From positions 1 through 64,000 of the forward strand of contig JAJFLB010000052.1 of NCBI GenBank assembly GCA_021772915.1: 64,000 nucleotides of DNA, given 5' to 3'. Positions within the stretch are counted from its first letter, which is position 1. Every line of letters begins with the position of its first letter. The notes under the pieces were generated by a model. The model was not told where the DNA came from. It searched no databases and saw only the letters and a list, made by a program, of their open reading frames with translations. Shown in pieces: positions 2,297 to 45,266 of the stretch. Source of the DNA: Gammaproteobacteria bacterium (GTDB taxonomy: Bacteria > Pseudomonadota > Gammaproteobacteria > Xanthomonadales > SZUA-36). A program made the position numbers and the translations under genes.

Positions 2297-2349
2297 TGTA
2301 GTTCCCTCTTTTGTCTCCGTCGTCAGTTGGATCGGTCGTTCTTTGTGTT

Positions 2350-2373: not shown

Positions 2374-2409
2374 CCTGTCTTCATCTCTTTGCCTGGTGTG
2401 CGCGCCTGG

Positions 2410-3264: not shown

Positions 3265-3329
3265 CCTCGTACTCCATCAAGGTGATAAATCTTGTAATTG
3301 ATCTGTCTCGTACACCTCAACCAAAAACA

Positions 3330-4106
3330 TCAGTTGTGTATATCCGCACCGCCGCACACATTCAGGACCTGCCCGGTGATGTAATCGGCCTCACGGGAGG
3401 CCAGGAACAACACTGCAGGTGCCACATCTTCAGGCATGGCATAGCGTCGCAAAACAATTCCCTTTAGGTATTGATCCCTGAACCTCGGGTCGGAACGAAT
3501 GGTCTCGGTCATGTCAGTTTCGACCAGTCCTAAAGCGACACAATTGACATTGATGCCTTTCCTTCCCCACTCACGTGCTGCGCTCATAGTAATGCCTACA
3601 ACACCCGCTTTAGCCGCTGCGTAGTTGATCTGGCCTATCGTTCCCCGCAGACCTGCAATTGAAGTGACATTGATGATCCTGCCATTTGCAATGGAATCTG
3701 GATTGTCATCTGCCTTTTGCATAAAAACCCGGCCAACGATCTGGGTACAGTTGAATACACCCGTCAAATTGACTGCCAAAACCTGCTGCCATTCTTCGGC
3801 AGTCATTTTGTGAATCATCGCTGGACGAGTAATCCCGGCGTTGTTGACAAGAATGTCGATGGTGCCGAAAGCCCCCAGACTTTCTTCGACCAGGCACTCG
3901 ACTTGAGTATGTTCTGCGACATCGGCTTCGCAAGCAATGGCCTTGCCACCAGCAGACTTGATTTCCATCGCGATATCATTTGCTGAACTTGCATTAATAT
4001 CTGTCACTACGACGTTCGCACCCTCGGCTGCCATGCTCCTTGCGACAGCGGCACCAATTCCCTGGCCAGATCCGGTAACAACTGCAACTTTTTCTCTTAA
4101 ACGCAT
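3330..4106 (-). CDS. Short-chain dehydrogenase/reductase (FabG-like 3-hydroxyacyl dehydrogenase)
   Basis: NAD(P)-dependent Rossmann enzyme, probably interconverting 3-hydroxyacyl- and 3-oxoacyl-CoA in the pathway of this operon. The 258 residues show the cofactor loop TGSGQGIG (11-18), the structural NNAG (88-91) and the catalytic Ser149, Tyr162 and Lys166. The Asp at the end of the second strand (TDI) is more typical of NAD(H) than NADP(H) use. A GAGGTGG ribosome site precedes the ATG. The gene starts 9 bases after the thiolase stop and ends 65 bases before the MaoC start, so the three genes most likely form one beta-oxidation cassette. A role as a general FabG is less likely because no fatty-acid synthesis genes are near. 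Confidence 0.9.
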   Translation of the reverse strand: MRLREKVAVVTGSGQGIGAAVARSMAAEGANVVVTDINASSANDIAMEIKSAGGKAIACEADVAEHTQVECLVEESLGAFGTIDILVNNAGITRPAMIHKMTAEEWQQVLAVNLTGVFNCTQIVGRVFMQKADDNPDSIANGRIINVTSIAGLRGTIGQINYAAAKAGVVGITMSAAREWGRKGINVNCVALGLVETDMTETIRSDPRFRDQYLKGIVLRRYAMPEDVAPAVLFLASREADYITGQVLNVCGGADIHN

Positions 4107-4115
4107 CGGTCCACC

Positions 4116-5300: not shown

Positions 5301-5303
5301 GGG

Positions 5304-6536: not shown

Positions 6537-8533
6537 TAGAGAGTAGTCCCTAAACGGCGGGCATCAATCATCGCCGTACCGATGTCACCTGGAGCAACGC
6601 AATCACCCACCCGATGAAGTTCACTGACTTCACCCTTGAGCGAGAAATACAGCTCATCAGCAGGGCTGCGGGCCGCGACCATCACAACGGTGTTAGCCTC
6701 TATTTGTCTGACCTGGGCTGGTGCGTAGAGATTGAAAACATCTACTTCGCCATGTCGAATCCCCCCAATCCAACTGTTAGGCAACATTTCCACTCCCAAT
6801 TCGAACAGACTCGGATACACGTACGGAAGATTCATCTCTTCAAGCAGCTTTGGCCCGACCATGGGATAACTTGTAACAATCGAAACGCGACTGCCTCGCG
6901 AAGCCAGCATTTCCGCCAGAGCAGGTGCAATCACCCCGCCATCGCCATCCAGAAGCACGACGCACTCACCGACTTCCACTTCCTCCCTAAGTACCATTTC
7001 GGGCGTAACAACGACACCGTCAAGATCCCAGCCCGGGATCGCCTCAGGCAGAACACCCGAGAACCCGGTTCTTAGAAAGCTCGCCCCTGTGGCGATCACA
7101 ACTGCATCTGGTTGCAATTCTAACAACATTTCCTTTGTGACTTTGGTGCCAAGGATGATCTTTGTCTCCGTTTTCTCAATTTGCATACGCAGCCACCGAA
7201 CCACACTTTCAATCTCACTCCTTCGCGGTAAAGTGGCAGCCAGCTTCACCTGTCCGCCCAGTGTTTCCTGCTGCTCATAGAGTGTCACTTTATGTCCACG
7301 ACGCCTTGCCAAACGTGCGACTTCCATGCCGGCCGCGCCACCACCTACAATTACAACATTTTTCACTTTGTCGGCTGTCTGCAGGGTGCCCTTGCCCCAG
7401 ACCCTCTCTTTGCCGACTGCCGGATTCTGAATACAACTCACCGGCAATCCCTTGTACAGATTGCCCATTGTGTACTGGTTGCAAAACACGCATTGACGAA
7501 TATCATCACTGCGCCCTTCCCTAACCTTCAACAGCCAGTCCGCATCGGAGATCAACGCCCGCCCAAGTCCCACGAGATCAGCGTAACCGTCATTCAGGAT
7601 GTCCTCTGCTGTGCCGGCATCAACCAGCCGGCCAGGTGCACACAGAACTGGGATTGGATCAACCACATCACGAATGCCGGCAGCAAATGGCAAGTTGTAT
7701 CCCTGAGCGCCGTACATGGGGCTCATCGTGACATGGTAGTTCTGGTGGGATCCAACATCGATGTCGAAAAAGTCAATCTGCCCGGTCCTCGCTATGATCT
7801 CGGCAATCTCCGTGGTGTCTTCCAGCGCCAGCCCGCCGGGAAGCAGTTCGTCACCGACCAGTCGGAGTCCCAGAGCCAGGGCGGGGCCGGCGGCTACCCG
7901 ACAAGCTTCAATCACTTGCAACAGCAGACGCATTCTATTTTCAAGCGAGCCACCGTAGTTGTCCGTTCTCTTGTTAAAAAATGGCGACAGGAATTGCTCC
8001 AGCAGGTAACCGTGGGACACATGCAGTTCAACACCATCGTAACCGGCTTCCCGGGCATTTACGGTGGCCCGTTTAAATCCCCGGATCACTGCTTCGATAT
8101 CTTTGGGTTCCATCGCCTTTGGTGTGGTTCCGGCGACCACAGACGGAACGCCCGATGGCCCAAGCGATGGTCTTGCATAACGGCGGGTGTTGCTTGCCTG
8201 ACCGATATGAAACAACTCGATGAATATCTTTGAACCCTGATCCTGGACACGGTCCACAATTTGCCGGGCAAACGGAATAATGCTCTCATCATCCATTCGG
8301 CTGTTGGGTACTGGCCAGTAATCGGAGGAAGGTGCAACATCGATCGCACCCTGAATGATAAGCCCCAAACCACTCTTGGCCCTTTCGGCGTAATAGTATG
8401 CGAGGTCTTCGCCTGGGTACCCGGTTGCCCGGTCGATGAAATTCAGTGTTAATGGGGCGTGATATACGCGGTTTGCAACTGCCACCGGGCCAATGTTAAT
8501 GGGGGAAAACAACAAACCATAATCGCCTGACAT
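6536..8533 (-). CDS. 2,4-dienoyl-CoA reductase-like NADH:flavin oxidoreductase with altered Fe-S motif
   Basis: Two-part flavoenzyme of the FadH/bile-acid BaiCD type: an Old Yellow Enzyme TIM barrel (about 1-340, with 'HVSHGYLLEQFLSP'), an Fe-S linker and a FAD/NAD(P) domain with 'IVGGGAAGMEVA' near 390. Such enzymes reduce a double bond conjugated to an acyl-CoA or ketone, passing electrons NAD(P)H-FAD-4Fe4S-FMN. The start at 8533 is chosen because AGGAGG lies just upstream; the longest frame would begin at 8563. The linker reads C348-x2-C351-x3-T355-x11-C367: the third cluster ligand, normally Cys, is Thr, while spacing is exact. The enzyme may hold an altered cluster or none. It overlaps the CoA-transferase by one base. 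Confidence 0.9.
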   Translation of the reverse strand: MSGDYGLLFSPINIGPVAVANRVYHAPLTLNFIDRATGYPGEDLAYYYAERAKSGLGLIIQGAIDVAPSSDYWPVPNSRMDDESIIPFARQIVDRVQDQGSKIFIELFHIGQASNTRRYARPSLGPSGVPSVVAGTTPKAMEPKDIEAVIRGFKRATVNAREAGYDGVELHVSHGYLLEQFLSPFFNKRTDNYGGSLENRMRLLLQVIEACRVAAGPALALGLRLVGDELLPGGLALEDTTEIAEIIARTGQIDFFDIDVGSHQNYHVTMSPMYGAQGYNLPFAAGIRDVVDPIPVLCAPGRLVDAGTAEDILNDGYADLVGLGRALISDADWLLKVREGRSDDIRQCVFCNQYTMGNLYKGLPVSCIQNPAVGKERVWGKGTLQTADKVKNVVIVGGGAAGMEVARLARRRGHKVTLYEQQETLGGQVKLAATLPRRSEIESVVRWLRMQIEKTETKIILGTKVTKEMLLELQPDAVVIATGASFLRTGFSGVLPEAIPGWDLDGVVVTPEMVLREEVEVGECVVLLDGDGGVIAPALAEMLASRGSRVSIVTSYPMVGPKLLEEMNLPYVYPSLFELGVEMLPNSWIGGIRHGEVDVFNLYAPAQVRQIEANTVVMVAARSPADELYFSLKGEVSELHRVGDCVAPGDIGTAMIDARRLGTTL

Positions 8534-8584
8534 TGAAACCTCCTTTTCTGGTCCAACTCCCAAAGGTGCTCTGGATCCGAATGC

Positions 8585-9586
8585 TTACATTTGCAGGAGT
8601 GGCCGAATCTCTGACGCGAAAAGTCTCAGAGAGTCATTGATTCTCTCTGGTGAAAGACCCGGTAACTGCATATGACAGAGAAAATGCCGCATACCCGTCT
8701 CATCCTGCAAAGCCTTAATTTCACCAAATACTTCACCAGGTGATCCCACCAAAGCATTGTCCGACACTTCGACGATGCGACTTCTTGCTTTATCACCGTC
8801 TGCTTCAACATACACATCACGTGCCACCACAAAATCAACTTCATGTTTCTGTCGACCGCACCGCTGCAGTTCCTTCCAATATGTCGCCGCTGTCTTTGCG
8901 GGATTATCATCCCCCACCAGCAGCAGTGAATGACCGTATCGGGCAGCGAATTCAATGGCTCTCGAGTCCCCGTTGCCAAGGTAGACTGGAGGATGTGGAA
9001 TCTGAATTGACTTCGGCAAAACCGACAGGTAATCAAAAGGCCGGCCCGCTCGTTCCATTGGCGTCAGGTGCGGTGGTTTGCATGGTTCAAGATGGAACGG
9101 GTCATCATTGTCCTGCACACGCGTCTCCACTGGCAGGCGGTGATATTTACCAAGATAGGCAAATCCATCATGCGACCACCCCTTGACGATGATGTCCAGT
9201 GCCTCACAAAAAACATCCCAGCGCTCCGACCAAGGAAACCGGCTGCCGTTCCACTCTTGCCTGTTAACGCCCGGATCAGCCCCAAATAACAATCGACCAC
9301 CAAGCAGGAGATCAAGAACTGCTGCATCTTCACAAACCTTCAGCGGGTGCCGCAGTGGCAGTTTGACGGACACGCCAACCAGGATGTCACGTGTAGTGGC
9401 CGCTACCGCAGCGCCCAAAGTAATCGCCGAAGGACAAGCAACACCAGCAGAGAAATAACTTTCCGTGATCCAGGCGGAGTCAAGACCACTCTCCTCAGCG
9501 ATCTGCACATACTTGATCCACTGTTCGAAGTCATCTGCAACGACACGCTCCCGAGACTCTCCAGTGAGTAACACACCGACTCTCAT
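8585..9586 (-). CDS. LLM-class flavin-dependent oxidoreductase (luciferase-like), copy 1
   Basis: Bacterial-luciferase-like TIM-barrel enzyme; members are FMN- or F420-dependent monooxygenases or dehydrogenases. The 333 residues show the family's N-terminal 'YVQIAEESGLDSAWITE' helix, the 'LLLGGRLLFGADPG' segment after the barrel's fourth strand and the C-terminal 'GSPGEVFGEIKAL' region. Start ATG overlaps the stop of copy 2 by four bases (ATGA) and has an AGGAGG-like site inside that upstream gene, so the two are translated together and may form a hetero-oligomer, as alpha/beta luciferase subunits do (inference). No flavin-reductase gene of the usual small type is seen in the window. The reaction cannot be assigned. 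Confidence 0.88.
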   Translation of the reverse strand: MRVGVLLTGESRERVVADDFEQWIKYVQIAEESGLDSAWITESYFSAGVACPSAITLGAAVAATTRDILVGVSVKLPLRHPLKVCEDAAVLDLLLGGRLLFGADPGVNRQEWNGSRFPWSERWDVFCEALDIIVKGWSHDGFAYLGKYHRLPVETRVQDNDDPFHLEPCKPPHLTPMERAGRPFDYLSVLPKSIQIPHPPVYLGNGDSRAIEFAARYGHSLLLVGDDNPAKTAATYWKELQRCGRQKHEVDFVVARDVYVEADGDKARSRIVEVSDNALVGSPGEVFGEIKALQDETGMRHFLCHMQLPGLSPERINDSLRLFASEIRPLLQM

Positions 9587-10626
9587 GGTCCTGTCCTCCT
9601 TTGGAAACGGGGCAACACGGTGTCTGCAAACAGGCGCATCTCTCGCAAAATCCTGTCGCTGCGAAAATTTGCTTCTACCAGTCGTGGTACAAACACATCA
9701 CAGCCCAGTTCACGGAACGCTTGAATGCGCTCAGTAACCTCATCCGGGGTTCCAAGAACGAAACTATCCATCAGCACCTGGAAGATTGGGTGCTCCGGCG
9801 GGATTTCAGTCACGGGATTTCCTTGCTCATCGCGAATAAATCCGAACGACACCAACTGCTCCGCGTAAACCGGCAACAAGTCCTCGGCTACGATGCGGTC
9901 AACTTCATCCTGAGTCTCGGCAACAGCCACATCGGTGGCCACTGCAACTTGCCCGGGCGCCACATTGGCTTGCGCCGCTGCGTCGTGGTATTCAGCGATC
10001 AGTTCCTTCACCCTTTCAAAGGGTTGTGAAACGGCGGCCACGCAGTATGAGATTCCCAACCGACCAGCTCGACGTGCGGTTGCAGTTTGTCCCCCTCCCG
10101 CAAGCCAAAGCGGTGGGTTTGGCTGTTGTAGTGGCTTTGGATGTATCGAAACACCGTCGAAAGAGTAGTACTCTCCTGAAAATGACGCCTCCTGCCTGCC
10201 TGAGGTGAGTCTCAGTATCTCGATAATCTCGGAGAAACGCGATCCTCGTCCTTGTTTCCCAAGACCAAAACCTTCGAACTCCTCGGATCGATAACCATAG
10301 CCCAGCATTAACGTCAACCGGCCGCGGGATAGGTGGTCAAGGACAGCAATTTCCTCCGCCAACCGCAACGGGTTTCGAAGCGTGGCGAGCAGGGCACAGG
10401 GAAGCAGGCGAATGGTTTTGGTTCGCTGCGCGATCGCTGCCAGAACCGGAAGCAAGGATGGACAATAACTGTCGTACCAGAAATGATGCTCGGTAAGCGC
10501 GAACCCATCGTATCCCAGACGCTCAGCCTCTACCGCATGTTCCATCACTGCCCGGTATAAATATGGAACTGACCGTGGAAAGGTACGTGGACTCTGCATT
10601 CCATACAGCCCTAGCCAAAATTCCAT
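9583..10626 (-). CDS. LLM-class flavin-dependent oxidoreductase (luciferase-like), copy 2
   Basis: Second luciferase-like barrel protein of the operon, 347 residues. Visible family features are 'AVEAERLGYDGFALTEHHF' (about 30-48), 'AVLDHLSRGRLTLMLGYGY' and the 'GTPDEVTERIQAFRELGCDVF' C-terminal part. It is clearly diverged from copy 1, and its 'EHHF' resembles the luciferase alpha/FMN branch more closely. It starts 3 bases after the acyl-CoA dehydrogenase stop and overlaps copy 1 by four bases. Possible roles are oxygen insertion next to a ketone (type II Baeyer-Villiger chemistry, known in this family) or hydroxylation of a cyclic acid; the sequence does not decide. Confidence 0.88.
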   Translation of the reverse strand: MEFWLGLYGMQSPRTFPRSVPYLYRAVMEHAVEAERLGYDGFALTEHHFWYDSYCPSLLPVLAAIAQRTKTIRLLPCALLATLRNPLRLAEEIAVLDHLSRGRLTLMLGYGYRSEEFEGFGLGKQGRGSRFSEIIEILRLTSGRQEASFSGEYYSFDGVSIHPKPLQQPNPPLWLAGGGQTATARRAGRLGISYCVAAVSQPFERVKELIAEYHDAAAQANVAPGQVAVATDVAVAETQDEVDRIVAEDLLPVYAEQLVSFGFIRDEQGNPVTEIPPEHPIFQVLMDSFVLGTPDEVTERIQAFRELGCDVFVPRLVEANFRSDRILREMRLFADTVLPRFQRRTGP

Positions 10627-10629
10627 CAG

Positions 10630-11778
10630 CTACTCCTCTTGTAAAACATTTTTGGCAATCACTATCTTCTGAATCTCGGACGTTCCTTCTGCGATGCGGA
10701 ACAATCTCGCTTCACGATACAATCGTTCCACCGCGTAGTCCCGCGCGTACCCCATCGCACCATGGATTTGAACTGCTGAGTCTGCGACCTGCCCTGCAGT
10801 CTCTGATGCGAACAGCTTGGCCATGGATGCTTCCTGCGCACACTTCACCTGCCGCTCGCATTTCCAGGCAGCGTGTCGGGTCATCATTCGCGCCGCGTAG
10901 ATTGAGGTCGCCATCTCAGCGAGCATGAACTGAATGGCCTGGAATTCAGCAATCGGACGGCCAAACTGAACCCGTTGCCTGGCGTAATCCGTGGACATTT
11001 CCAGCAAACGCTGGGCCAGTCCAGTGCATGCTGCAGCGTAGGAAATACGCCCCTCTTCGAGACACGACATTGCCACCTGAAATCCACGCCCCTCATCCCC
11101 CAGCAGGTTGGCGGCCGGAATCCTGCAATCTTCGAAATTAATCTCACAACGCCCGTAACCTTTACCGCCCATGGTCTCTTGTGTCCTGCCAAGACTGAAG
11201 CCTGGCGCGTCCGGCTCCACCAGAAAAACACTCATTCGCTCGCTGGTTCGACTTTCCTTGCTCGTCACCGCAACGACGGTAATCACATCCGCGTAAGGTG
11301 CGTTGGTAATGAAATGTTTGTTGCCGTTGAGGACGTAATGTTCACCATCTCTGACTGCAAGCGTCTTGATCGCAGCCACGTCTGAACCAGCGCCTGGCTC
11401 ACTGATCGCGAAAGAGGTTATAAATCCACCGCTGGCCATCTTGGGGAGGTAATGTTGTTTTTGTTGCTCAGTGCCATATTTCACGAGCGCCTTCGAACCT
11501 ATGCCATTACTGATGCCAATCAATGCACGAATGGCACCATGAGCCTTGCCAATTTCTTCGCTGATAAGGGTGTATCCGAATGGTCCAATACCCAATCCGC
11601 CATACTCAGCCGGAATTGTTACTCCAAACAATCCCATTTCTTGCATTTTCTCAAGCAGTGCACCCGGCACCCGGTCCTCGGCCTCAATCTGATTTTCCAG
11701 CGGGATGACTTCCTTGAGTACGAAATCCCTCACTGCGTCCCTGAGTTGTTGCAGGTCGTCGGGTATCGAAAAATCCAT
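10630..11778 (-). CDS. Acyl-CoA dehydrogenase 1
   Basis: FAD enzyme that makes the alpha,beta double bond of an acyl-CoA and passes electrons to ETF. The 382 residues show the N-terminal helical domain, 'AISEPGAGSDVAAIKT' and 'YVLNGNKHFITNA' of the beta domain, and the C-terminal helical domain ending in 'AEGTSEIQK' with the catalytic Glu364 at the short/medium-chain position. 'MGYARDYAVERLYREARLFRI' is typical of the SCAD/BCAD-like group. It is packed between the CoA ligase (5 bases) and luciferase-like copy 2 (3 bases), so it probably acts directly after ligation. The ETF genes at 20425-22364 would take its electrons. Confidence 0.92.
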   Translation of the reverse strand: MDFSIPDDLQQLRDAVRDFVLKEVIPLENQIEAEDRVPGALLEKMQEMGLFGVTIPAEYGGLGIGPFGYTLISEEIGKAHGAIRALIGISNGIGSKALVKYGTEQQKQHYLPKMASGGFITSFAISEPGAGSDVAAIKTLAVRDGEHYVLNGNKHFITNAPYADVITVVAVTSKESRTSERMSVFLVEPDAPGFSLGRTQETMGGKGYGRCEINFEDCRIPAANLLGDEGRGFQVAMSCLEEGRISYAAACTGLAQRLLEMSTDYARQRVQFGRPIAEFQAIQFMLAEMATSIYAARMMTRHAAWKCERQVKCAQEASMAKLFASETAGQVADSAVQIHGAMGYARDYAVERLYREARLFRIAEGTSEIQKIVIAKNVLQEE

Positions 11779-11783
11779 TGCCG

Positions 11784-13460
11784 TTATCCGTCCAATCCAA
11801 ATTCGTGAATCGCCTGGATACGCAACTCGAATTTCTTGACCTTACCCGAAGAAGTCAAGGGGAAGTCAGCAGCGCTTACAAGCTTGACATACCTCGGAAC
11901 CTTGTAGTTAGCCATGTGTTCCTTGCAAAAGTTGATGATATCCTTCTCCTCCATTCTTTCCGCCTCTTCCAACTCGATATAGGCGCATCCAACTTCACCA
12001 AGGCGCCTGTCAGGTACCCCTAATACCTGTGCCATTTTTATTTTTGGATGGTCGTGTAAAATATTTTCTGTTTCCGCCGGATACACGTTGAACCCACCTA
12101 CCAGGTACATGTCTTTGATTCGGCCTGTGATTCTAAGATAACCGTCGGAGTCGAAAATACCCAGGTCGCCGGTGTGGAACCAACCTTCTTCGGTAATCGT
12201 TTCGGCGGTCTTCTCCGGCATCTCAAAGTAGCCTTTCCCAACACAGGAGCCTGGGAATGTATCACGCAGTAATATTTCTCCCTGTTCGCCGGGTAGTACT
12301 GTTTCAAGCGACCCCGGTTCGGCAATGCGCACTTCATTGCTGGGAAATGGAGTGCCAACCGTGGTGGCAACTTTTTCAATCGGGTCGTCAAGTAATGTTG
12401 AGGTGGAAAGACCGCCACATTCACTCAGACCGTAGCAATGTACTACGTGCTTGAAGCCCATCTTGTCCTGCATTGCACGGATCGTATCAGGGGAACAAGG
12501 TGCACCGCCAACGATTGCAGTGCGCAGGCTGCTGAGGTCGAATCGATCAAGACCAGGGTGACTGAGCATCATGATGTACATGGTCGGGGCGCCAGGAAAC
12601 CAACTGATCTTTTCACTCTCAATAGCCCGCAATGCCGCTTTGGGCTGGAAAGCCTCATGCACGATGATGGTACTGCCGGCCAGAACGCTCAGCTGAGAAA
12701 CATAGGCGCAGCCAAAGTTGGTTGCGAACGGCACACCGAGATAGACGCGATCGGAAGGGCGCAAACCCGTTCTTTCCACCCAGTGGTGCAAAGCTGCCAA
12801 GTTGTTGCGGTGCATCGACAAGCCGCCTTTCGGGACGCCTGTGGTTCCAGATGTATAGACAATATTCGCAACGTCGAAGGGATTAACCCGAAGTGCGGCC
12901 CGCCGCAGTTCATCACCCTGTTCCCAGTTTCTACCCGTCTCCAGAACCCGGGAAAATGCATACGCCCCCGCTGGCAAACCCTCACCAAGATAGATCACAC
13001 GTTTAAGATCAGGCAGACCGGGCACCACCAGGTTATCAGGATCGGAATGGGCTATGTCCGGGATCAATCGCTCGAGTAAGGGTAGAACACTCACCGTTCC
13101 GGCCAGGAAATGACTGGACAGGATCAAGGTAGATGACCGTGATTGCCTGAGTGAGGTTAAAACTTCTTCTGGTGTGAAGCGAGTGTTGACAGGGACAAGC
13201 GGGGCGCCAATCTCGTAGGCACCAAACTGTGCCACCATCCATTCGACACAGTTCATCATCCAAAGTGCTATATTTTCGCCCTTGCGGACACCCATGGATA
13301 ACAATCCCCGTGCGAAACTCTGTGTCAGGGGATAAAATTCCTGAAAAGTAATCCGTCGGGGACCATCGACGATAAGTTCAATCTCGGGATACTTTTCTAC
13401 TGATTGAGCCAGCACGCTGCCCCATGTCTTATTGGTGATTTCGTACCAATTCTCGGCCAT
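11784..13460 (-). CDS. AMP-forming acyl-CoA synthetase A
   Basis: Activates a carboxylic acid to its CoA thioester through an acyl-adenylate. The 558 residues contain the P-loop 'VYTSGTTGVPKGG' (about 201-213), 'YGLSECGG' (A5 region), the 'FHTGDLGIFDSDGYLRITGRIKD' hinge (A7/A8) and the C-terminal Lys in 'TSSGKVKKFE' (A10). Length and motifs fit the FadD3/medium-chain or aryl-acid group; the acid cannot be named. It starts 8 bases after the amidohydrolase stop and ends 5 bases before the dehydrogenase start. It is one of four ligases in the island, suggesting several acids or several activation points. Confidence 0.92.
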   Translation of the reverse strand: MAENWYEITNKTWGSVLAQSVEKYPEIELIVDGPRRITFQEFYPLTQSFARGLLSMGVRKGENIALWMMNCVEWMVAQFGAYEIGAPLVPVNTRFTPEEVLTSLRQSRSSTLILSSHFLAGTVSVLPLLERLIPDIAHSDPDNLVVPGLPDLKRVIYLGEGLPAGAYAFSRVLETGRNWEQGDELRRAALRVNPFDVANIVYTSGTTGVPKGGLSMHRNNLAALHHWVERTGLRPSDRVYLGVPFATNFGCAYVSQLSVLAGSTIIVHEAFQPKAALRAIESEKISWFPGAPTMYIMMLSHPGLDRFDLSSLRTAIVGGAPCSPDTIRAMQDKMGFKHVVHCYGLSECGGLSTSTLLDDPIEKVATTVGTPFPSNEVRIAEPGSLETVLPGEQGEILLRDTFPGSCVGKGYFEMPEKTAETITEEGWFHTGDLGIFDSDGYLRITGRIKDMYLVGGFNVYPAETENILHDHPKIKMAQVLGVPDRRLGEVGCAYIELEEAERMEEKDIINFCKEHMANYKVPRYVKLVSAADFPLTSSGKVKKFELRIQAIHEFGLDG

Positions 13461-13468
13461 CTTGCGTC

Positions 13469-14314
13469 TCAGAGCTTGAGCAGTCTTTTCGCGTTCGTTA
13501 AATATACTTTTTCCAGCACCTCAGCCGAAAAACCAGCAGCCTCCCAGTCCGTAAATAACCTTGCATGGGTGATCGCCGGGTAATCGGAGCCAAACAGGAA
13601 CTTGTCCTGCAACCGGCCCCCAATCTCTCGCTTCAAGGCGCTGGAAAAATACTTGGGAGACCACCCTGAAAGTTCGTTAAAAACGTTCGGCTTGTGCAGG
13701 AGTACCATGAGCATTTCATCCTGCCAGGGCCAGGAAGCGTGACAGGCGACAATGGTTAAATCCGGAAAATCCGCAGCCACGTCATCCAGGGCCAATGGAT
13801 GCCCATATTTGAGGTGAATGTTGCTGTCTTTCATACCCAGGCCAACCCCGGTCATACCGGTATGAAACTGGATGGGTACTTCCAGCGAACTGCATAAATC
13901 GTAGATTGGGTAGAAGCGCTTGTCGTTGGGCGAAAACGCCTGCAAGATTGGATGGAACTTGACCCCACACAGACCAAGCTCATTAATCGCACGATCCACC
14001 TCTGCAACTGCCGCCTTTCCACGCCATGGGTCTACGCAGGCGTAACCCGATATGAAGGCCTCCGGGTAGGCCGAAACCAGGTCTGCGATGTGATCATTGC
14101 TGGTACCTGGTTGCCCAGTTGCACTTTCAGCTGAGACCGCAACCAACACAGCTTTGACGTCTGCGTCGACAATCATGCGTGCGAAATCCGCCGCAGGCAT
14201 TACACCCTCGCGCTCAGTCATCTTGTAATACTGGCTGGTTGCAGCCTGATACGGTGCGAATGGACGAAAGCCCTCTTCCGTGGGGATATGGCAGTGCATG
14301 TCGATTGCCTTCAT
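13469..14314 (-). CDS. Amidohydrolase_2-family metal enzyme (ACMSD-like)
   Basis: TIM-barrel protein of the family that includes ACMS decarboxylase, gamma-resorcylate decarboxylase and related hydrolases. The 281 residues keep the metal-binding H7xH9 at the start ('DMHCHIP'), a barrel His in 'QFHTGM', His in 'VACHASWPWQ' and the conserved Asp in 'LFGSDYP'. These complete the usual metal site, so hydrolysis or non-oxidative decarboxylation of a pathway acid is possible. It lies 8 bases upstream of the CoA ligase and 116 bases downstream of the SnoaL-like gene. Its counterpart at 43375 has lost the HxH pair. Confidence 0.87.
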   Translation of the reverse strand: MKAIDMHCHIPTEEGFRPFAPYQAATSQYYKMTEREGVMPAADFARMIVDADVKAVLVAVSAESATGQPGTSNDHIADLVSAYPEAFISGYACVDPWRGKAAVAEVDRAINELGLCGVKFHPILQAFSPNDKRFYPIYDLCSSLEVPIQFHTGMTGVGLGMKDSNIHLKYGHPLALDDVAADFPDLTIVACHASWPWQDEMLMVLLHKPNVFNELSGWSPKYFSSALKREIGGRLQDKFLFGSDYPAITHARLFTDWEAAGFSAEVLEKVYLTNAKRLLKL

Positions 14315-31941: not shown

Positions 31942-32816
31942 TGATGTCCAAAACCATTGTTACCTGCGCGCTGACCGGTGCTCAACAAGGCAAGGAAACT
32001 AACCCAGCCCTGCCGGAGCAACCAGACGAAATTATCCACCAGGGGCTGGAAGCCTGGCGCGCCGGTGCCGCGATTTTGCATCTGCACGCCCGTGATGCCG
32101 CAGGCAAAGCGACGGGTGATGTTGAAATTTTCAGACGCATTGTAACCGGACTCAGGGACGCCGGTTGTGACGCGGTTCTGAACCTGACCACGGGTGGGGC
32201 GGTAGCCGGTCTGGGTATTGACGAGCGCCTGCGGGTGCTGTCTGAACTGCAACCGGAGATCGCTTCTTTTAGCGTGGGTGGCGGCAGCATGCTGGGACGT
32301 TTTGATGCCACCGAAGGCCAATGGAAGGGTGATCGTTTTGTCCAGCTATTTCGCTCTAACGAGGAACTTGAACGGGTGGCACGCCTGTTTAAAGCAAACG
32401 GCGTAAGGCCGGAACTCGAGGTTTATCATTCCGGCATGCTTAACAACATTGCAGCTTTGCACGCCCTGGGCGTACTCAATGAGCCTTTGTTGGTTAACAT
32501 CGTAATGGGTATTCCCGGAGAATGCCTCAAGCCGAGCGTTAAAAATCTCCTCTACGTGGTGGAGCAACTTCCAGCAGGCGCCCAGTGGCTGGTGTCAGCC
32601 ATCGGCGCGCGCAATCATTTCCGTATGCTGGGGGCGGTGCTGGCTATGGGCGGCCATGTGCGGGTCGGGCTGGAAGATAATGTGTACCTCAATCGGGGCC
32701 AACTGGCAGCTTCTAACGGTGAAATCGTCACCAAGGCGGTGCACCTGATCCACGAATTGGGTGCAGAGCCGGCCAGCCCCGCTGAGACCCGGGAAATTCT
32801 GAGACTGCAAACGTGA
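31941..32816 (+). CDS. Beta-keto acid cleavage enzyme (BKACE, DUF849 family)
   Basis: BKACE enzymes use Zn and acetyl-CoA to cut a free beta-keto acid into acetoacetate and a new acyl-CoA; the founding member cleaves 3-keto-5-aminohexanoate. The 291-residue protein has the Zn pair H47xH49 in 'ILHLHARD', 'SFSVGGGSM' and 'HVRVGLEDNVYL', with the family Glu. The ATG overlaps the previous stop (TAATG) after an AGGGGGA site. Its presence among crotonases implies that a pathway intermediate is a beta-keto acid not (or no longer) bound to CoA, or that this enzyme generates the final acyl-CoA. Which keto acid is unknown. Confidence 0.9.
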   Translation: MMSKTIVTCALTGAQQGKETNPALPEQPDEIIHQGLEAWRAGAAILHLHARDAAGKATGDVEIFRRIVTGLRDAGCDAVLNLTTGGAVAGLGIDERLRVLSELQPEIASFSVGGGSMLGRFDATEGQWKGDRFVQLFRSNEELERVARLFKANGVRPELEVYHSGMLNNIAALHALGVLNEPLLVNIVMGIPGECLKPSVKNLLYVVEQLPAGAQWLVSAIGARNHFRMLGAVLAMGGHVRVGLEDNVYLNRGQLAASNGEIVTKAVHLIHELGAEPASPAETREILRLQT

Positions 32817-39210: not shown

Positions 39211-40227
39211 GTGCCAGTAAAAATATCAGGGGTGGGCTGGCATCTGCCGGACATTCAGCCACCAACAGGCAAGACGGAGCGCGCCATTCCGGTCATGGTT
39301 TACCGAGCGGTACGCGCTTGCCTGGATGATGCCTCACTTACCATGCCTGAAATCGAGGCGGTGGTGACCGCGTCTGCAGACCTGTGGGATGGCAAAACGG
39401 CTTCCAACATCGCCATAACCGAGGCGGTGGGGGCGGTGATGAAAGCGGAAACCCGCATTTCCGGCGACGGGCTTTTGGCCCTTATGCACGGCGCGATGAT
39501 GATACTGTCAGGTCACTACCAGCGGGTGCTGGTGGTCGCTCATGGCAAGTGTTCCGAGGCTGACGTAGACGCTGTATCCAATTGGTGTTTCGATCCTGTT
39601 TATCAACAAACTCTGGGAGTGACTGATTCCCAGGCCCTGTCCCTGCAGTGCCAGGCGATAAAAATGCGAGCCGCGGAAATGACCGGTGAAGAATCCATCG
39701 GAGCCCTTGTCCGTGCACCAAGCTGGAGTGATTCGTGTGGGCTGACGGTTCGCCAGGGCGATGGCGCCTGCGCAGTGGTTATAGAGGCTGGTGACGATGG
39801 CATTGTACTGGAAGGTTTTGGTTACGACCTGGACGCGCACTACTTGGGTGACAGGGATCTCTCCCGGTGTGACGGTTTGGCACGGGCGGCAAAAAGGGCC
39901 TACGAGATGGCAGGACTGCCAGATTCGCAAACCGACATCAATCGCCACTACTGGTCACTGCGTGCAGCCTTGCAATTGCCTCCGTGGGCCGAAGCAATCG
40001 GTGCCTGCTCCTTCATTGAGGGTCTGGCAACATTGCCCAATGAACGGCATCAGATCCAGTGGTCCGGATTGCCACCTTTCGCAGCCGGCATGCAGCGCCT
40101 GATCGCAGGCGTTAAAGATTTGCGGGAAAGTCCTGGGTCAGACAGGTCCCTGATTCATGGCTGCCATGGACCGGCCGGGCAAATGCAGGCAGTCTGCCTG
40201 CTACACAGCGACGGCGGGCCCTGCTGA
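39211..40227 (+). CDS. Thiolase-like protein 1, lacking the nucleophile cysteine
   Basis: 338-residue protein with the thiolase fold pattern: N-terminal 'VKISGVGWHLPD', 'EIEAVVTASADLWDG', and a C-terminal 'LIHGCHGPAGQMQAVCLL' matching the last strands. The segment that should hold the nucleophile Cys reads 'TRISGDGLLALMHGAM', with no Cys, so it cannot work as a normal thiolase. It starts with GTG, has a poor ribosome site and is shorter than SCPx-type thiolases (about 390). Directly ahead of another thiolase-like gene and two DUF35 genes, it is probably a structural or regulatory subunit of a heteromeric complex. Only a general similarity is visible, so the name is tentative. Confidence 0.7.
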   Translation: MPVKISGVGWHLPDIQPPTGKTERAIPVMVYRAVRACLDDASLTMPEIEAVVTASADLWDGKTASNIAITEAVGAVMKAETRISGDGLLALMHGAMMILSGHYQRVLVVAHGKCSEADVDAVSNWCFDPVYQQTLGVTDSQALSLQCQAIKMRAAEMTGEESIGALVRAPSWSDSCGLTVRQGDGACAVVIEAGDDGIVLEGFGYDLDAHYLGDRDLSRCDGLARAAKRAYEMAGLPDSQTDINRHYWSLRAALQLPPWAEAIGACSFIEGLATLPNERHQIQWSGLPPFAAGMQRLIAGVKDLRESPGSDRSLIHGCHGPAGQMQAVCLLHSDGGPC

Positions 40228-40324
40228 TGGCCTGCCCTTATATTGCACCGCTAAGACCCGCAGGGCCAACGCGCAGTTCCGACCACCAGATGATCGGGAT
40301 ACAGGCATGCTCAAAGGGTGCAAC

Positions 40325-41485
40325 ATGAAGGCCAGACCCGTCGCGATAGTTGGCACTGGCCAGACCCGCCACCGTAAGGCACGTCCCGATGTGCACCAGG
40401 GTGAAATGGTTCAGGAAGCAGTAAACCTTGCCCTGTTAGACGCAGATCTGAGCTGGGATGATATCGACGCCATTGTGCTGACCAATATGGAGCTGTTTGA
40501 AGGCCGCGCACTACCGGATTTGTGGTGCAGTGAATTCGCCGGCGGTTTGGGCAAGCCAGTTATGAAAGTAGCCACCGGTGGCACCTCGGGCACATCCGGT
40601 GCCATTGCGGGGCTACTGCAGGCTGCCTCCGGTTTGTTTGACACCGTGTTGGTAGTAGGCTGGGAGAAGCATTCTGAGGGCTCTACCCAAACCGGAATGT
40701 CGCTGACCGATCCTGCCTGGGATCGTCACATTGCCGCCGGTGCTATCGGTAATTTTGCACTCTCCATCTCGCAGTATGTTGCTGAACGGGGCGTCACCGG
40801 CGAGCAAGCTGCCATGGTGGCAGTGAAAGCCCGGCGCAACGGAGCCCTCAACCCCAACGCGCATGTAAAGGATGCCGGGATTACAGTCGAAAAGGTATTG
40901 GCCTCACCAATGTTGGCTGAGCCTGTTCATCTGCTGGATATGTGCCCCCAGTCCGACGGCGCTGCCGCATTGATCGTTGTGGGTGGTGACAAGACCCGGC
41001 GTTATAAGAACCCAGCCTGGTTTCGGGGTTCAGCCACTCGTCACGACCAACCCTATATTGGTGATCATGATAAGCGCATGGTTATGATGCGCACCTTGCG
41101 CAGCGCGGCACAGGAGGTTTATAGGAAAGTGGGGATTGGCGATCCTTTCAAAGAAATAGATATCGCCGAAATATACGAACCGGTTTCCTATGCGGAGTTG
41201 GCCTGGTACGAGGCTCTGGGTTTTTGTGCAGAGGGAGACGCCGGCAAATTGATCGAAAGCGGCGCCACTCAAATCGGCGGTGACTTACCGGTTAATCCTT
41301 CCGGTGGCGTGCTTTGTTCCAACCCGGTGGGCGCCACCGGTGTGATACGTGTAGCGGAAGCAGCCAGACAACTGCATCTCAAGGCAGGTGATTATCAGGT
41401 GGATGGTGCCCGCCGGGCACTGGTTAGCGGTTATGGCGTTTATACCTGGAGTGATGTGCTGTTTTTCTCGGCTGAGAGACCGTGA
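40325..41485 (+). CDS. Thiolase-like protein 2 (SCPx/Ltp2-type, candidate aldolase/lyase)
   Basis: 386 residues from ATG 40325 (AAAGGG upstream; a longer frame reaches 40157). The fold is that of SCPx/Ltp-type thiolases: 'RPVAIVGTGQT', 'VATGGTSGTSGAIAGLLQAA', 'AEIYEPVSYAELAWYEALGFC', 'NPSGGVLCSNPVGATG'. The nucleophile Cys is missing (Gly/Thr-Ser at 85-88) and the catalytic His of 'GHP' is Asn333 ('CSNPVGATG'). The same losses occur in Ltp2-type steroid aldolases, which act with a DUF35 partner, and tyrosines here (Y284, Y289, Y295) occupy the region where that family has its catalytic tyrosine. A CoA-ester retro-aldol or related C-C cleavage is the best guess. Confidence 0.82.
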   Translation: MKARPVAIVGTGQTRHRKARPDVHQGEMVQEAVNLALLDADLSWDDIDAIVLTNMELFEGRALPDLWCSEFAGGLGKPVMKVATGGTSGTSGAIAGLLQAASGLFDTVLVVGWEKHSEGSTQTGMSLTDPAWDRHIAAGAIGNFALSISQYVAERGVTGEQAAMVAVKARRNGALNPNAHVKDAGITVEKVLASPMLAEPVHLLDMCPQSDGAAALIVVGGDKTRRYKNPAWFRGSATRHDQPYIGDHDKRMVMMRTLRSAAQEVYRKVGIGDPFKEIDIAEIYEPVSYAELAWYEALGFCAEGDAGKLIESGATQIGGDLPVNPSGGVLCSNPVGATGVIRVAEAARQLHLKAGDYQVDGARRALVSGYGVYTWSDVLFFSAERP

Positions 41486-41493
41486 GGGACGAC

Positions 41494-41994
41494 ATGCAAG
41501 AAAACAACTCAGAATACCTCTTCTCCAGCATCACCATGGATCTAAGCTGGAACACGGATGTGGGTGAAACCATGGCCGGTTTCTTTCAGCGTCTGAAAGC
41601 CGAACGACGTTTATACGGTACACGTTGTTCAAATTGTCTGCGTGTTTACCTGCCACCCCGACCCGTGTGCGGTAACTGTTGGCAACAGATGAATGACTGG
41701 GTCGAACTCGGTGAGCAAGGAACTATCGTTGGCAAGACTGTGTGCTATTACGAGATACTGGATTCCATGACCGGAAAACCACGCACAACCCCGTTCGTGT
41801 TGGGGCTGATTCAGATTGATGGCGCCGACACCACGCTCAACCATTTTGTAGAGACCCCTGATCCGGACCACGTCAGTATTGGTGATCGGGTGGAAACCGT
41901 TTTGCGCGATACCCTGCAAGGCAATGTCGGCGACATCGTACATTTTCAATGGTTGGGTCCACCAACAACATCAAGTCAAGGCTCCAAAAAATGA
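41494..41994 (+). CDS. DUF35 Zn-ribbon/OB-fold protein 1
   Basis: 166 residues from ATG 41494 (GAGGGA upstream; a GTG at 41482 overlapping the previous stop is the alternative). Zn ribbon C45-x2-C48-x10-C59-x2-C62 is followed by an OB-fold ('GTIVGKTVCYYEI...PFVLGLIQIDGADTTLNHFVE'). DUF35 proteins bind a thiolase-fold partner and often supply the CoA-ester channel. It overlaps the next DUF35 gene by four bases (ATGA). Together with the thiolase-like pair, this is the arrangement seen for aldolase and HMG-CoA-type complexes in other organisms. Confidence 0.88.
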   Translation: MQENNSEYLFSSITMDLSWNTDVGETMAGFFQRLKAERRLYGTRCSNCLRVYLPPRPVCGNCWQQMNDWVELGEQGTIVGKTVCYYEILDSMTGKPRTTPFVLGLIQIDGADTTLNHFVETPDPDHVSIGDRVETVLRDTLQGNVGDIVHFQWLGPPTTSSQGSKK

Positions 41995-42434
41995 AAAAGT
42001 ATCAGCAGTTGCGAGCGAGTGTTCATCTACCTTTCAGCTTCGCGGTTGGCGCAACTGCCAGCCGTTTCTATCGCGCCCTGCGGGACGAGAAAACCATCTA
42101 CGGGACGCGCTGTGACAACTGTCAGCGTGTTTCCGTGCCAGCCCGCTCCTTTTGTTCTCACTGTTGTAAGACCATTGACCACCACCAGACGGGTCAGTGG
42201 ATAGCCTTGCCAGAATACGGAACCTTGATTGGCTGGTGTGAAACACCGAATAAAGATGGGTTTTTTACGGCGCTGATTCAATTGGAAGGAGCCGACAATC
42301 TTCTGTTACACCGGGTCGGTCAGTGTGACGCAGTATTGCTTCACAAAGGCTTACATTTGCGGGCGGCTTGGAAAGCTTCCGCTGCGGGGACGATTACGGA
42401 TATTGTCTGTTTCAAACCGGAGAGAAGAGCGTGA
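41991..42434 (+). CDS. DUF35 Zn-ribbon/OB-fold protein 2
   Basis: 147 residues; ATG 41991 overlaps the previous stop, and GTG of the next gene overlaps this stop, both by four bases. Zn ligands are C41-x2-C44-x10-C55-x2-C58, then a shorter OB-fold. It is diverged from DUF35 protein 1 and begins 'FAVGATASRFYRALRDEKTIYGTRCDNC', so the two probably pair with different thiolase-like subunits. Two DUF35 and two thiolase-like genes in one operon suggest a four-component complex (inference). Confidence 0.87.
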   Translation: MKKYQQLRASVHLPFSFAVGATASRFYRALRDEKTIYGTRCDNCQRVSVPARSFCSHCCKTIDHHQTGQWIALPEYGTLIGWCETPNKDGFFTALIQLEGADNLLLHRVGQCDAVLLHKGLHLRAAWKASAAGTITDIVCFKPERRA

Positions 42435-43222
42435 GCATTCTGGTTGAAACTCGGGGTCGGTTAAGAATTCTTACCATCAATCGCCCACAAGTGAAAAATG
42501 CACTGGACATCGATACAAGCCGGGTACTGGCGCAACACTTTATTGAGTTTTGTGATGACCCTGAAGTCTGGGTGGCAATCATTACCGGCAGCGGTACAGA
42601 ATCCTTTTGCGCTGGCGGCGATCTGAAAAAAATAGGCACCTATTATGCCAGTATGACACCCGCCGAGCGGCTCAACCGGGGCGAGACTGAACCAGGCTTT
42701 GGTGGCATAACCCGCAACCTGCCGGTGTGGAAACCTGTCATCGCCGCCATCAATGGCTTTTGTCTGGCAGGTGGGCTGGAAATCGCTCTCGCCTGTGACC
42801 TGCGCGTGGCAGAAGAACATGCCAGTTTTGGTTTGACCGAGGTGAAGTGGGGAATCATCCCCGGAGCCGGTGGAACCCAGCGCCTGCCACGCTTGATCGG
42901 TGTGGACAGGGCGTTGGATCTTATCCTGACCGCCCGCAAAATGCCCGCAGAAGAGGCTCTGCGGTGCGGTCTGGTATCCCGCCTGGTACCTGCCGGTCAG
43001 GCCCTGGAAAAAGCTGTCGAACTGGCGGAACAGATTTGTGAAAACGCGCCGCTGGCGGTGAGAGCTGCAAAAGAGGCCGTCATGCGTGGGCTGGATATGC
43101 GTCTGGAAGAGGGTTTGCGCCTGGAGCAGCTTCTGGCTGAACCCCTGCGCCAGTCAGATGACGCCAAAGAAGGCCCCCGGGCTTTTGCCGAAAAATGCAA
43201 GCCACAATTCAGGGCTAGGTAA
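42431..43222 (+). CDS. Enoyl-CoA hydratase 4 (classical active site)
   Basis: 263 residues from GTG 42431, which overlaps the DUF35 stop by four bases. It has both hydratase glutamates: E117 in '[11 protein letters not shown]' and E137 in '[25 protein letters not shown]', the only one of the five crotonases here that does. A genuine (S)-enoyl-CoA hydratase is therefore likely, making the 3-hydroxyacyl-CoA that the neighbouring lyase complex could cleave. The following gap of 152 bases contains only weak hairpin potential. Confidence 0.92.
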
Positions 43223-43374: not shown

Positions 43375-44235
43375 ATGTCTGAAAAAATTGCTGCAATTGA
43401 CGCGTGGGGCAGCTGGATTCCTCCAGAAGGCGCCAAAACGTGGCCGGAATCCTTTCATCATGCATTTAAGAATTACAAGTCTGATCCACGTATTTTGTCG
43501 GGTATGAGTATCGAAGAAATGATCGACGATATGGATCAGGCGGGCGTGGATATGGTTGTTTTGTCTTCTTTCCAGTTTGACGGTGTGGATGTGGTCACCA
43601 ACGGACAAGTGGCAATTGCTGCGAAAAAGTATCCCAGGCGTTTTGTCGCCTGCGGTACGTTGGACCCGCGCGGCAAACCTATGCAAGTGCTGGCTGAACT
43701 CAAGCAGATGAAAGAAGAATACGACATGGTCTGCCTGCGGCTGGAGCCTTATGCCTATGGCGATGGTATCAAAGGTGCGCCGCCGACCGAAAGAATGTAT
43801 TGGCCACTTTATGCCAAGTGTTGTGAGCTGGATATGGCAGTCGCCATCCAGGTTGGCCACACAGGCCCCCTGTTGCCTTCCGAAGCAGGACGACCCATCT
43901 ATCTGGATGAAGTGGCGCTGGCATTCCCCGAACTACGCATTATTGGCGCCCATCTGGGACAACCGTGGCATGAAGAGATGATGGTCCTGGCCTGGAAACA
44001 CCCCAATGTCTATATCGAGACTTCCGCGCGGGTACCCAAGCACTGGCCGCAGAGCTTTGTGAAGTTTTGTGACACCTACGGTCAGGACAAAACCCTGTGG
44101 GCCACAGATTACCCATTGCTGCCGTTCGATCGTTGCATCAATGAAATTGATGATCTTGATATTCGCGCTACAGCAAAAAAAAAGCTGTTACGTGATAACG
44201 CGATCCGGGCGTTCAAGCTGCAGGATAGGGTCTGA
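43375..44235 (+). CDS. Amidohydrolase_2-family protein without the HxH metal pair
   Basis: 286-residue TIM-barrel protein related to the one at 13469. Three of the usual metal/active-site residues remain: His162 ('VGHTGP'), His193 ('GAHLGQPWHEE') and Asp245 ('ATDYPLL'). The start, which should read D-x-H-x-H, is instead 'IDAWGSW', with Trp11 and Ser13 in place of the two His. Binding of the first metal should be impaired or different, so it may use one metal through the remaining residues, or work as a non-hydrolytic decarboxylase or isomerase. The stop overlaps the next gene's ATG by one base. Function not known. Confidence 0.85.
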   Translation: MSEKIAAIDAWGSWIPPEGAKTWPESFHHAFKNYKSDPRILSGMSIEEMIDDMDQAGVDMVVLSSFQFDGVDVVTNGQVAIAAKKYPRRFVACGTLDPRGKPMQVLAELKQMKEEYDMVCLRLEPYAYGDGIKGAPPTERMYWPLYAKCCELDMAVAIQVGHTGPLLPSEAGRPIYLDEVALAFPELRIIGAHLGQPWHEEMMVLAWKHPNVYIETSARVPKHWPQSFVKFCDTYGQDKTLWATDYPLLPFDRCINEIDDLDIRATAKKKLLRDNAIRAFKLQDRV

Positions 44236-45266
44236 TGAAAGCGGCGCTGTTCAAAAACGCCCAGGAACCTTTGCAGGCAGGTGAGATTGAAGCCCCTGCC
44301 CCGCAGGCCGACGAGGTATTGATCGACATCAAGGCCTGCGGTATTTGCGGCACGGATGTCCATATCGCCAAAGAAGGCAGTATTCCCACTGCCTTCACAC
44401 CCATTGCGCTGGGCCACGAGCCGGCGGGCGTCATTGCCGGTCTCGGCAGTGCGGTGAGCAACTGGCACCTTGGCGACAGGGTGGCGTGTTACCCGGCGGC
44501 TTTTTGTGGGCAGTGCCCGGCCTGTGAAAATGGCCGCGAAGGGCTTTGTTTCAAGTCGGAAATTTTCGGTATCGGCCGTCATGGCGCCATGGCTGAGCAG
44601 ATGGCCGCACCGGCGCGCTGCCTGGTGAAACTACCCGACAGCATCTCATTCGAAGTAGGGGCTATTCTTACCGACGCAGTTTCCACGCCTTATCACGCGG
44701 TGGTGCGCCGCGCCCAACTGGTGGCAGGGGAAAGTGTGGTAATTATCGGCTGCGGTGGGCTGGGTAGCCAGGCTGTCCGTTTTTGCAAGCTCTTTGGTGC
44801 CGCACGCATCATTGCCGTCGACCGGAACTCGGCAGCGCTGGAGGCAGCAGAAAAAGCTGGTGCCACCGATGTGATTCTGGCTGGCGACGAACCTGCCAAC
44901 AAACTGGTCAAAACACTCACCGCTGGCACTGGTGTCGATGTTGCTTTCGAGTTTGTGGGTGCGTCCCGAACCATCGATACGGCTGTGCGCTGTCTGCGCC
45001 GGGGTGGCCGTGCAGTGGTGGTGGGGATCGGTACGGAGAAAATCCAACTGCCTGCGGTGCGCACGTTTGTAGGTAATGAATATGAACTGCGTGGCTCCAT
45101 GGGACTGGATTTACAGGATCTCAAAGATGTCGTAGCGCTGGTCGAAGCCGGCAAGCTGCAGCTGGACGGTACAACCCATGGAATTTCAATCAACGCGGTG
45201 GATAGTGCACTGGTCCTTCTGCAGCAAGGGCGGGCAGAGCATGCACGCTACGTGGTGACGGTGTGA
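44235..45266 (+). CDS. Zn-dependent medium-chain alcohol dehydrogenase
   Basis: 343 residues of the MDR superfamily. Catalytic Zn region 'CGICGTDVHIAK' and 'GHEPAG', structural Zn cysteines 'CGQCPACENGREGLC', Rossmann motif 'GCGGLGSQAV' and Asp at the NAD-binding 'VDRNSAALEAAEKAGA' are present; the Asp favours NAD. It resembles threonine- and cyclohexanol-type dehydrogenases, including 6-hydroxycyclohex-1-ene-carboxyl-CoA dehydrogenase in general form, so oxidation of a ring or chain hydroxyl is likely. Starts within the amidohydrolase stop codon and precedes crotonase 5 by 24 bases. Confidence 0.92.
   Translation: MKAALFKNAQEPLQAGEIEAPAPQADEVLIDIKACGICGTDVHIAKEGSIPTAFTPIALGHEPAGVIAGLGSAVSNWHLGDRVACYPAAFCGQCPACENGREGLCFKSEIFGIGRHGAMAEQMAAPARCLVKLPDSISFEVGAILTDAVSTPYHAVVRRAQLVAGESVVIIGCGGLGSQAVRFCKLFGAARIIAVDRNSAALEAAEKAGATDVILAGDEPANKLVKTLTAGTGVDVAFEFVGASRTIDTAVRCLRRGGRAVVVGIGTEKIQLPAVRTFVGNEYELRGSMGLDLQDLKDVVALVEAGKLQLDGTTHGISINAVDSALVLLQQGRAEHARYVVTV

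Follow-up and report, generated by a model that had tools for sequence, protein, structure and literature searches.

A variant of the Ltp3/Ltp4 gene set with two DUF35 proteins in a gammaproteobacterial contig, probably encoding a heteromeric aldolase

We analysed a 64,000-nucleotide stretch of DNA from a gammaproteobacterium of the Xanthomonadales lineage SZUA-36 (assembly GCA_021772915.1, contig JAJFLB010000052.1, positions 1 to 64,000; hereafter the window), in which two thiolase-like genes lie beside two DUF35 genes on the forward strand. P1 (39211..40227, 338 amino acids, GTG start) is a degenerate, Ltp4-like thiolase-fold protein and the proposed non-catalytic partner of P2 (40325..41485, 386 amino acids), an Ltp3-like thiolase-fold protein with Gly86 in place of the nucleophilic Cys, together with Tyr284, His180 and Asn333, which we propose to be the catalytic aldolase subunit. 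They are followed on the same strand by D1 (41482..41994), a DUF35 protein with a Cys4 zinc ribbon and an OB fold, and D2 (41991..42434, frame open from 41949), a second, diverged DUF35 protein with a Cys4 ribbon. The next gene (42431..43222, forward strand) encodes an enoyl-CoA hydratase whose best NCBIfam model is EchA19 (282 bits, cut-off 400), and which is the proposed source of a 3-hydroxyacyl-CoA. An earlier interpretation made from the letters alone (the sequence-only reading) had both DUF35 genes joined by four-base overlaps. Such overlaps are found between P2 and D1 and between D2 and the hydratase, whereas the overlap of D1 and D2 depends on the start of D2, being 4 bases with the ATG at 41991 and 46 bases with a start at 41949.

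In pairwise alignments, with which MAFFT agrees, P2 has Gly86 where 6esq, 7pxp (BbsB) and 6hsj have their nucleophilic Cys, Tyr284 in place of the His of their HDCF/HDAF motif, and Asn333 in place of that of GHA/GHP. To follow these residues, relatives were taken from a profile scan with the P2 alignment over one genome per species, which confirmed at least 576 of them, the best 80 being kept; all relative counts given here therefore describe the close relatives of P2 and not the whole family. In the alignment of these 80 loci with the window, Gly86, Tyr284, Asn333, His180 and Cys207 are each present in 80/80 relatives. The sequence-only reading was thus right in placing Asn333 at the catalytic His, and also in stating that both thiolase-like proteins lack the nucleophilic Cys, although for P1 the alignment is weak there. 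Its term "cysteine-less" does not apply, since the proteins are not free of cysteine and the invariant Cys207 remains in P2. The SCP2 and Ltp2 references also carry a Cys at this position, which lies outside the three catalytic motifs.

In Ltp2 of Saccharopolyspora hirsuta, which itself has Gly in place of Cys, the residue matching Tyr284 is the Tyr of the YDHF motif. PMC12329534 identifies the Tyr of YDHF/YDCY as the base initiating C-C cleavage in TcLtp2 and CtSal. The P2 motif is YEPV and not the YDHF of Ltp2 (PRK07855). Position 286 is Pro in P2 and in 79/80 relatives, where Ltp2 has His, the SCP2 reference Cys and Sal Cys304. The second catalytic Tyr of Ltp2 has no counterpart near Asn333. 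Taken together, the alignments of Tyr284, Gly86 and Pro286 suggest that P2 has the base, without the thiolase nucleophile and without both known proton donors. His180, one of 39 invariant P2 residues, aligns with Trp in S. hirsuta Ltp2 and with Ile in the SCP2 reference, and is a candidate proton donor. P2 matches the thiolase C-terminal domain of Pfam (112 bits), and its AlphaFold2 model (mean predicted local distance difference test, pLDDT, 88.8; predicted template modelling score, pTM, 0.91) has a best fold match at E 7e-35, with SCP2 thiolase, BbsB and AACT/HMGS within the first eight matches, Ltp2 at rank 21 and Sal at rank 23. The input alignments of the models held 33 (P1) and 34 (P2) sequences, out of 82 and 83 at hand. 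Both models match thiolase-fold structures, with DUF35-partnered ones among the best matches.

P1 has neither a Cys at the nucleophile position nor the HDCF or GHP residues at the aligned columns. In this weakly aligned part the base column is occupied by Ser and the GHP column by Leu in the window P1, with His246-Tyr247 two to three residues before the base column. Ser is also found at the base column in three of the four relatives L040-L043 (Ala in L040), and His in 66/79 P1 relatives. Excluding a fragment at L083, 12 residues are invariant in the window and 78 loci; one of them, Asp86, is close to the former nucleophile site. At the sequence level P1 gives only an ACP_syn_III fragment in Pfam (24.6 bits) and no convincing match in a PDB sequence search (best E 0.094). 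Its AlphaFold2 model (mean pLDDT 82.1, pTM 0.86) has a best fold match at E 2e-20, with MucABC, AACT/HMGS and PhlC among the first six, which indicates that P1 has a complete thiolase fold, too diverged for ordinary sequence searches to recognise. From its residues P1 looks non-catalytic, and it probably corresponds to Ltp4; the P1 of the Woeseiaceae relative has the Ltp4 model PRK07937 as its best, full-length match (146 bits). In three metagenome-assembled genomes (MAGs), of bacterium PL23a (L049), a euryarchaeon (L050) and Elusimicrobia (L051), the P1 homologue has a Tyr at the base position (YDAF, YDSF and YAAF), as if both subunits had once been catalytic.

The description of D1 and D2 as two diverged DUF35 proteins of zinc-ribbon/OB type agrees with our results, since a C-x2-C-x10-C-x2-C motif is kept in both; by Pfam, D1 matches zf-ChsH2 and OB_ChsH2_C and D2 matches zf-ChsH2 only, its OB part being without a match. 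In the close relative L039 the two are one fused protein. Across the relatives the C-x2-C...C-x2-C motif is absent from 88 of the 158 DUF35 domains examined, all within L047-L118, loci that by title are mostly from Actinobacteria, and often in the first half only. Judging from these sequences, one domain of the two seems able to do without its zinc ribbon.

In 77/80 loci of other organisms a P1-like and a P2-like gene again lie together with two DUF35 domains, and the arrangement is therefore not due to chance; this also supports the "four-component" set proposed by the sequence-only reading. The partner thiolase-like gene is present in 79/80 loci, being absent at L108 and only a fragment at L083. 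The two DUF35 domains are fused in 63 loci and separate in 14, and the exceptions are L053, with one domain at a contig start, L083, with none at a contig end, and L108, with none. A hydratase scoring above 120 bits to the window's EchA19-like protein is found in 64/80 loci. A plasmid-borne variant (L008:11042-13640, Rhodococcus qingshengii pLP1) has two MaoC genes followed by a 304-amino-acid P1-like protein, a P2-like protein and a single DUF35 gene. Over 22 loci the P1 and P2 distances correlate (r 0.858, against 0.393 for the best of 2000 permutations), as joint inheritance of the two genes would produce.

Next, we placed the proteins in a midpoint-rooted FastTree phylogeny of 80 tips (25 of 83 P2-like, 24 of 82 P1-like and 31 other proteins). 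P2 lies in a clade of 27 tips with S. hirsuta Ltp3 (support 1.0), apart from S. hirsuta Ltp2, SCP2 thiolase and the host's own paralogue, and on a different branch from actinobacterial Ltp3. The P1 proteins group separately, and their sub-groups mirror those of P2. The Ltp3 model PRK08313 is the best model for P2, and S. hirsuta Ltp3 scores 732 bits against it (cut-off 514), while the adjacent Ltp4 scores 605 bits against PRK07937 (cut-off 419). We take this locus (L112) to be ltp4-ltp3 of S. hirsuta VKM Ac-666, from its gene order with EchA19 (441 bits, cut-off 400) and a ligase and from the two proteins above the model cut-offs; PMC8708139 gives neighbouring locus tags for fadD19, echA19, ltp4 and ltp3 in this strain. 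By sequence, the P1-P2-D1-D2 set is homologous to ltp3-ltp4 and the double-DUF35 gene of sterol-degrading Actinobacteria, of which it is a distinct variant in a conserved cluster. The sequence-only reading's candidate new complex is therefore not supported as new, and Ltp2, which falls in another clade, is not the nearest relative.

The host's own paralogue (L028, G000:C41:56082-57185) has Gly for Cys and a YDCF motif, a signature which PMC12329534 reports for TbSLP and which is close to the YDCY of Sal. It adjoins an amidohydrolase-like frame, as judged by eye, and groups in the tree with six other loci of the host's family; from its motif it is possibly another aldolase. Another locus, L096, comes from a MAG record titled Klebsiella pneumoniae and is of Ltp3/Ltp4 type, grouping with actinobacterial ones, so that the title is probably wrong.

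We propose that P1, P2, D1 and D2 probably constitute an Ltp3/Ltp4-type heteromeric aldolase, which would cleave a beta-branched 3-hydroxyacyl-CoA produced by the neighbouring EchA19-like hydratase. From the observed sequences, predicted folds, conserved residues, recurrence and clade we infer the reaction, the make-up of the dimer, the pairing of DUF35 proteins with subunits, the proton donor and the substrate. The hydratase would supply the 3-hydroxyacyl-CoA, and Tyr284 of P2, as the catalytic subunit, would deprotonate the 3-hydroxyl group of a beta-branched (tertiary) substrate; the C2-C3 bond would then break by a retro-aldol reaction, an acyl-CoA leaving together with a ketone or keto acid. 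Lacking the nucleophilic Cys, P2 should be incapable of ordinary thiolysis. With Pro at position 286, the proton donor would be neither the His of Ltp2 nor the Cys of Sal, but His180 or water. The thiolase dimer would contain P1 in place of a second P2 and so be asymmetric, each half being flanked by its own DUF35 protein, unlike the symmetric Sal/Shy. Such an arrangement would account for the association of two unlike thiolase-fold proteins with two DUF35 domains, and also for the fusion of these domains in many Actinobacteria and in L039. Hydration followed by retro-aldol cleavage is a natural pair of steps, given the frequency of the EchA19-like hydratase at these loci. A DUF35-assisted retro-aldol lyase fed by the hydratase had already been suggested by the sequence-only reading, and it is still the interpretation best supported by the loss of Cys, the Tyr, the DUF35 partners and the hydratase, although at the aligned position the aldolase-type Tyr is present in P2 only.

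The closest known system, the Ltp3/Ltp4 pair of S. hirsuta with its double-DUF35 gene, has the same combination of a degenerate and a Tyr-type thiolase-fold protein, two DUF35 domains and an EchA19-like hydratase, while the window differs in its separate branch, its unfused DUF35 proteins and in having Cys4 ribbons in both. Like P2, Ltp2 in the Ltp2-ChsH2 complex (PDB 6ok1) combines a thiolase fold with Gly in place of Cys, the Tyr that in Ltp2 belongs to YDHF, and a DUF35 partner (ChsH2), but this complex has one thiolase-like protein and one DUF35 protein, and the oxyanion His and second Tyr of Ltp2 are missing from P2. Sal-Shy (PDB 9myr; PMC12329534) is likewise a DUF35-bound thiolase-fold aldolase with the equivalent Tyr; it differs in using Cys304 of YDCY as the acid and in its central Sal homodimer, the CtSal-CtShy complex being a symmetric alpha-beta-beta-alpha assembly with two DUF35 proteins flanking the central dimer. 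The benzoylsuccinyl-CoA thiolase BbsAB (PDB 7pxp) shares the thiolase fold and a DUF35 protein (BbsA), but BbsB keeps the thiolase residues.

The neighbourhood of the set distinguishes the window and its five nearest loci (L039-L043, P2 64-66% identical), which come from MAGs named Anaerolineae, Desulfarculaceae, Proteobacteria, Woeseiaceae and Deltaproteobacteria. Upstream on the forward strand lie an acyl-CoA dehydrogenase (ACAD_29952, 29952..31106), an enoyl-CoA hydratase/isomerase family protein (ECH_31156, 31156..31941, TTG start) and a beta-keto acid cleavage enzyme (BKACE, 31944..32816, start codon ambiguous). Homologues of all three, at 40% identity or more and above 120 bits within at most 8 kb on each side, are found in 5/5 of these loci and in 0/75 others, L050 having a BKACE at 34% identity; L041 is cut by a contig end. 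Downstream, an Amidohydrolase_2 protein (43375..44235) and a zinc alcohol dehydrogenase (44235..45266), both on the forward strand, each have homologues in 4/5 of the loci. TetR_34941 is found in 3/5, ECH_32889 and ACAD_33796 each in 2/5, and both ligases of the window cluster, ECH_45270, the CoA-transferase and ACAD_46779 in 0/5.

The BKACE protein belongs to the family that includes triacetate acetoacetate-lyase (Pfam BKACE, 286 bits), but scores below the cut-offs of all four NCBIfam models matched; a TGAQQGK stretch is invariant in the 6/6 BKACE sequences. BKACE enzymes require a free beta-keto acid. For the triacetate acetoacetate-lyase member this requirement is described in PMC10470551. 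We infer that cleavage of the substrate may release such an acid. A tentative reading, which we hold to be distinctly less likely than the aldolase assignment itself, is that the window clade is a thiolase-fold 3-hydroxy-3-alkylglutaryl-CoA lyase, analogous to HMG-CoA lyase with an unrelated fold: a carboxymethyl-branched 3-hydroxyacyl-CoA would yield acetyl- or propionyl-CoA and a free beta-keto acid, which BKACE would convert with acetyl-CoA to acetoacetate and an acyl-CoA. The acid consumed would resemble that of the C24-branched sterol route, in which, according to the review PMC3546705, an enoyl-CoA is carboxylated at C28, hydrated and cleaved by a retro-aldol reaction to propionyl-CoA and a beta-keto acid needing CoA activation. 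The reading would also fit the chemistry put forward for that route, so that release of a keto acid might be common to all Ltp3/Ltp4-type lyases. By eye we saw no acyl-CoA carboxylase among the listed open reading frames of the window or in L039-L043, nor did one crude motif scan of the window reveal any, no profile search being made, which counts against the keto-acid lyase unless the substrate is already a dicarboxylate. A phloroglucinol-like downstream route (cyclohydrolase, dehydrogenase and BKACE-family lyase; PMC10470551) is a remote option, because the cyclohydrolase there is of the "cyclase" family and not Amidohydrolase_2.

The host genome (4.68 Mb, 71 contigs, 98% complete) was searched with two sterol-ring markers, KstD and HsaA of S. 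hirsuta, actinobacterial queries that both exceed their own NCBIfam cut-offs. No HsaA homologue was found with this query (best 25% identity), and one FAD dehydrogenase, with a twin-arginine-like leader by eye, is 36-40% identical to S. hirsuta KstD and reaches 267 of 789 bits against the KstD model. By these two markers sterol-ring degradation is not evident in the host, which, like the BKACE and amidohydrolase cluster mates, sets the window apart from the S. hirsuta locus. P1 matches were found in 4/369 genomes of the class, its own included, the other three at 34% identity or less. P2 matches occur in 18/61 genomes (its own and 60 relatives); outside the window, full-length matches have at best 31-35% identity and short pieces up to 46%, and none reached E 1e-60 in 397 other genomes of the phylum sampled. 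With close P2 orthologues absent from the 60 relatives and these 397 genomes, the cluster looks rare among the host's kin and horizontal acquisition is probable. No relatives were found in viral contigs. The window also carries a second catabolic cluster on the reverse strand (1325-14314), including a FabK-like flavoprotein and, by eye, MaoC, SDR, thiolase, CoA-transferase, flavoprotein reductase, two LLM oxidoreductases, acyl-CoA dehydrogenase, ligase and an amidohydrolase-like gene.

Several results weigh against the heteromeric aldolase. P2 reaches 398 of the 514 bits required by PRK08313, which lowers strict subfamily membership but not homology, and the window P1 scores weakly against PRK07937 (55 of 419 bits), its best NCBIfam model being PRK06066 (68 of 516 bits). 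The P1 group has an overall support of 0.59, with the Cupriavidus P1 outside it, and common descent also gives a P1/P2 distance correlation. In the aligned P1 set a Cys stands on the nucleophile column in L045, L046 and L008, and the last of these has the single DUF35 beside the pair. The AlphaFold2 models are of single chains. For Ltp3/Ltp4, our literature search, for which subscription papers were mostly beyond reach, turned up neither an activity measurement nor biochemical or structural work, and PMC10398937 reports that deletion of ltp3 or ltp4 in M. neoaurum WIII did not abolish 4-HBC formation from phytosterols.

The set could instead be a DUF35-dependent thiolase or acyltransferase (BbsAB-, PhlABC- or HMG-CoA-synthase-like) with another nucleophilic residue. 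AACT/HMGS, BbsB, SCP2 thiolases and PhlC are among the nearest solved sequences or folds, and D1 matches the BbsA model weakly (26 bits, cut-off 250). We consider this improbable, since the Cys of 6esq, BbsB and SCP2 thiolase is replaced by Gly and the GHP His by Asn in the window and every relative, and the only invariant Cys of P2 is Cys207, shared with the SCP2 and Ltp2 references. It is equally doubtful that we are dealing with a sterol side-chain aldolase proper in a host that degrades C24-branched sterols, as in Rhodococcus with Ltp3/Ltp4. Membership of the Ltp3 clade, the adjoining EchA19-like hydratase and the acyl-CoA ligases in the window agree with this, whereas the result for the two host markers does not, nor do the branch distinct from actinobacterial Ltp3, the closest relatives in MAGs named Desulfarculaceae and Anaerolineae, and the three upstream partners, confined to the window clade at 40% identity. 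Only slightly less unlikely is that both thiolase-like proteins are catalytic, or that the set has no catalytic role and is a scaffold or a lipid-binding complex. The Tyr of L049-L051, the His common at the P1 base column, the 12 invariant P1 residues and His246-Tyr247 all speak for a function of P1 of this kind, but the window P1 has Ser at that column, while the catalytic-type residues of P2 are invariant.

The Ltp3/Ltp4-type aldolase thus remains our preferred interpretation. Ltp3 and Ltp4 have so far been named in sterol degradation from genetics: in Rhodococcus rhodochrous ltp3 and ltp4 are described as encoding aldol lyases required for C24-branched sterol side chains (Wilbrink 2012, via citing papers), and in a Mycobacterium each is about 97-fold up on phytosterol (PMC6593523). 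The data here point to the likely catalytic subunit and a candidate key residue. They also extend the unit beyond Actinobacteria, to MAGs named Anaerolineae, Desulfarculaceae, Elusimicrobia and Euryarchaeota, and the link to BKACE gives a testable guess at the chemistry.

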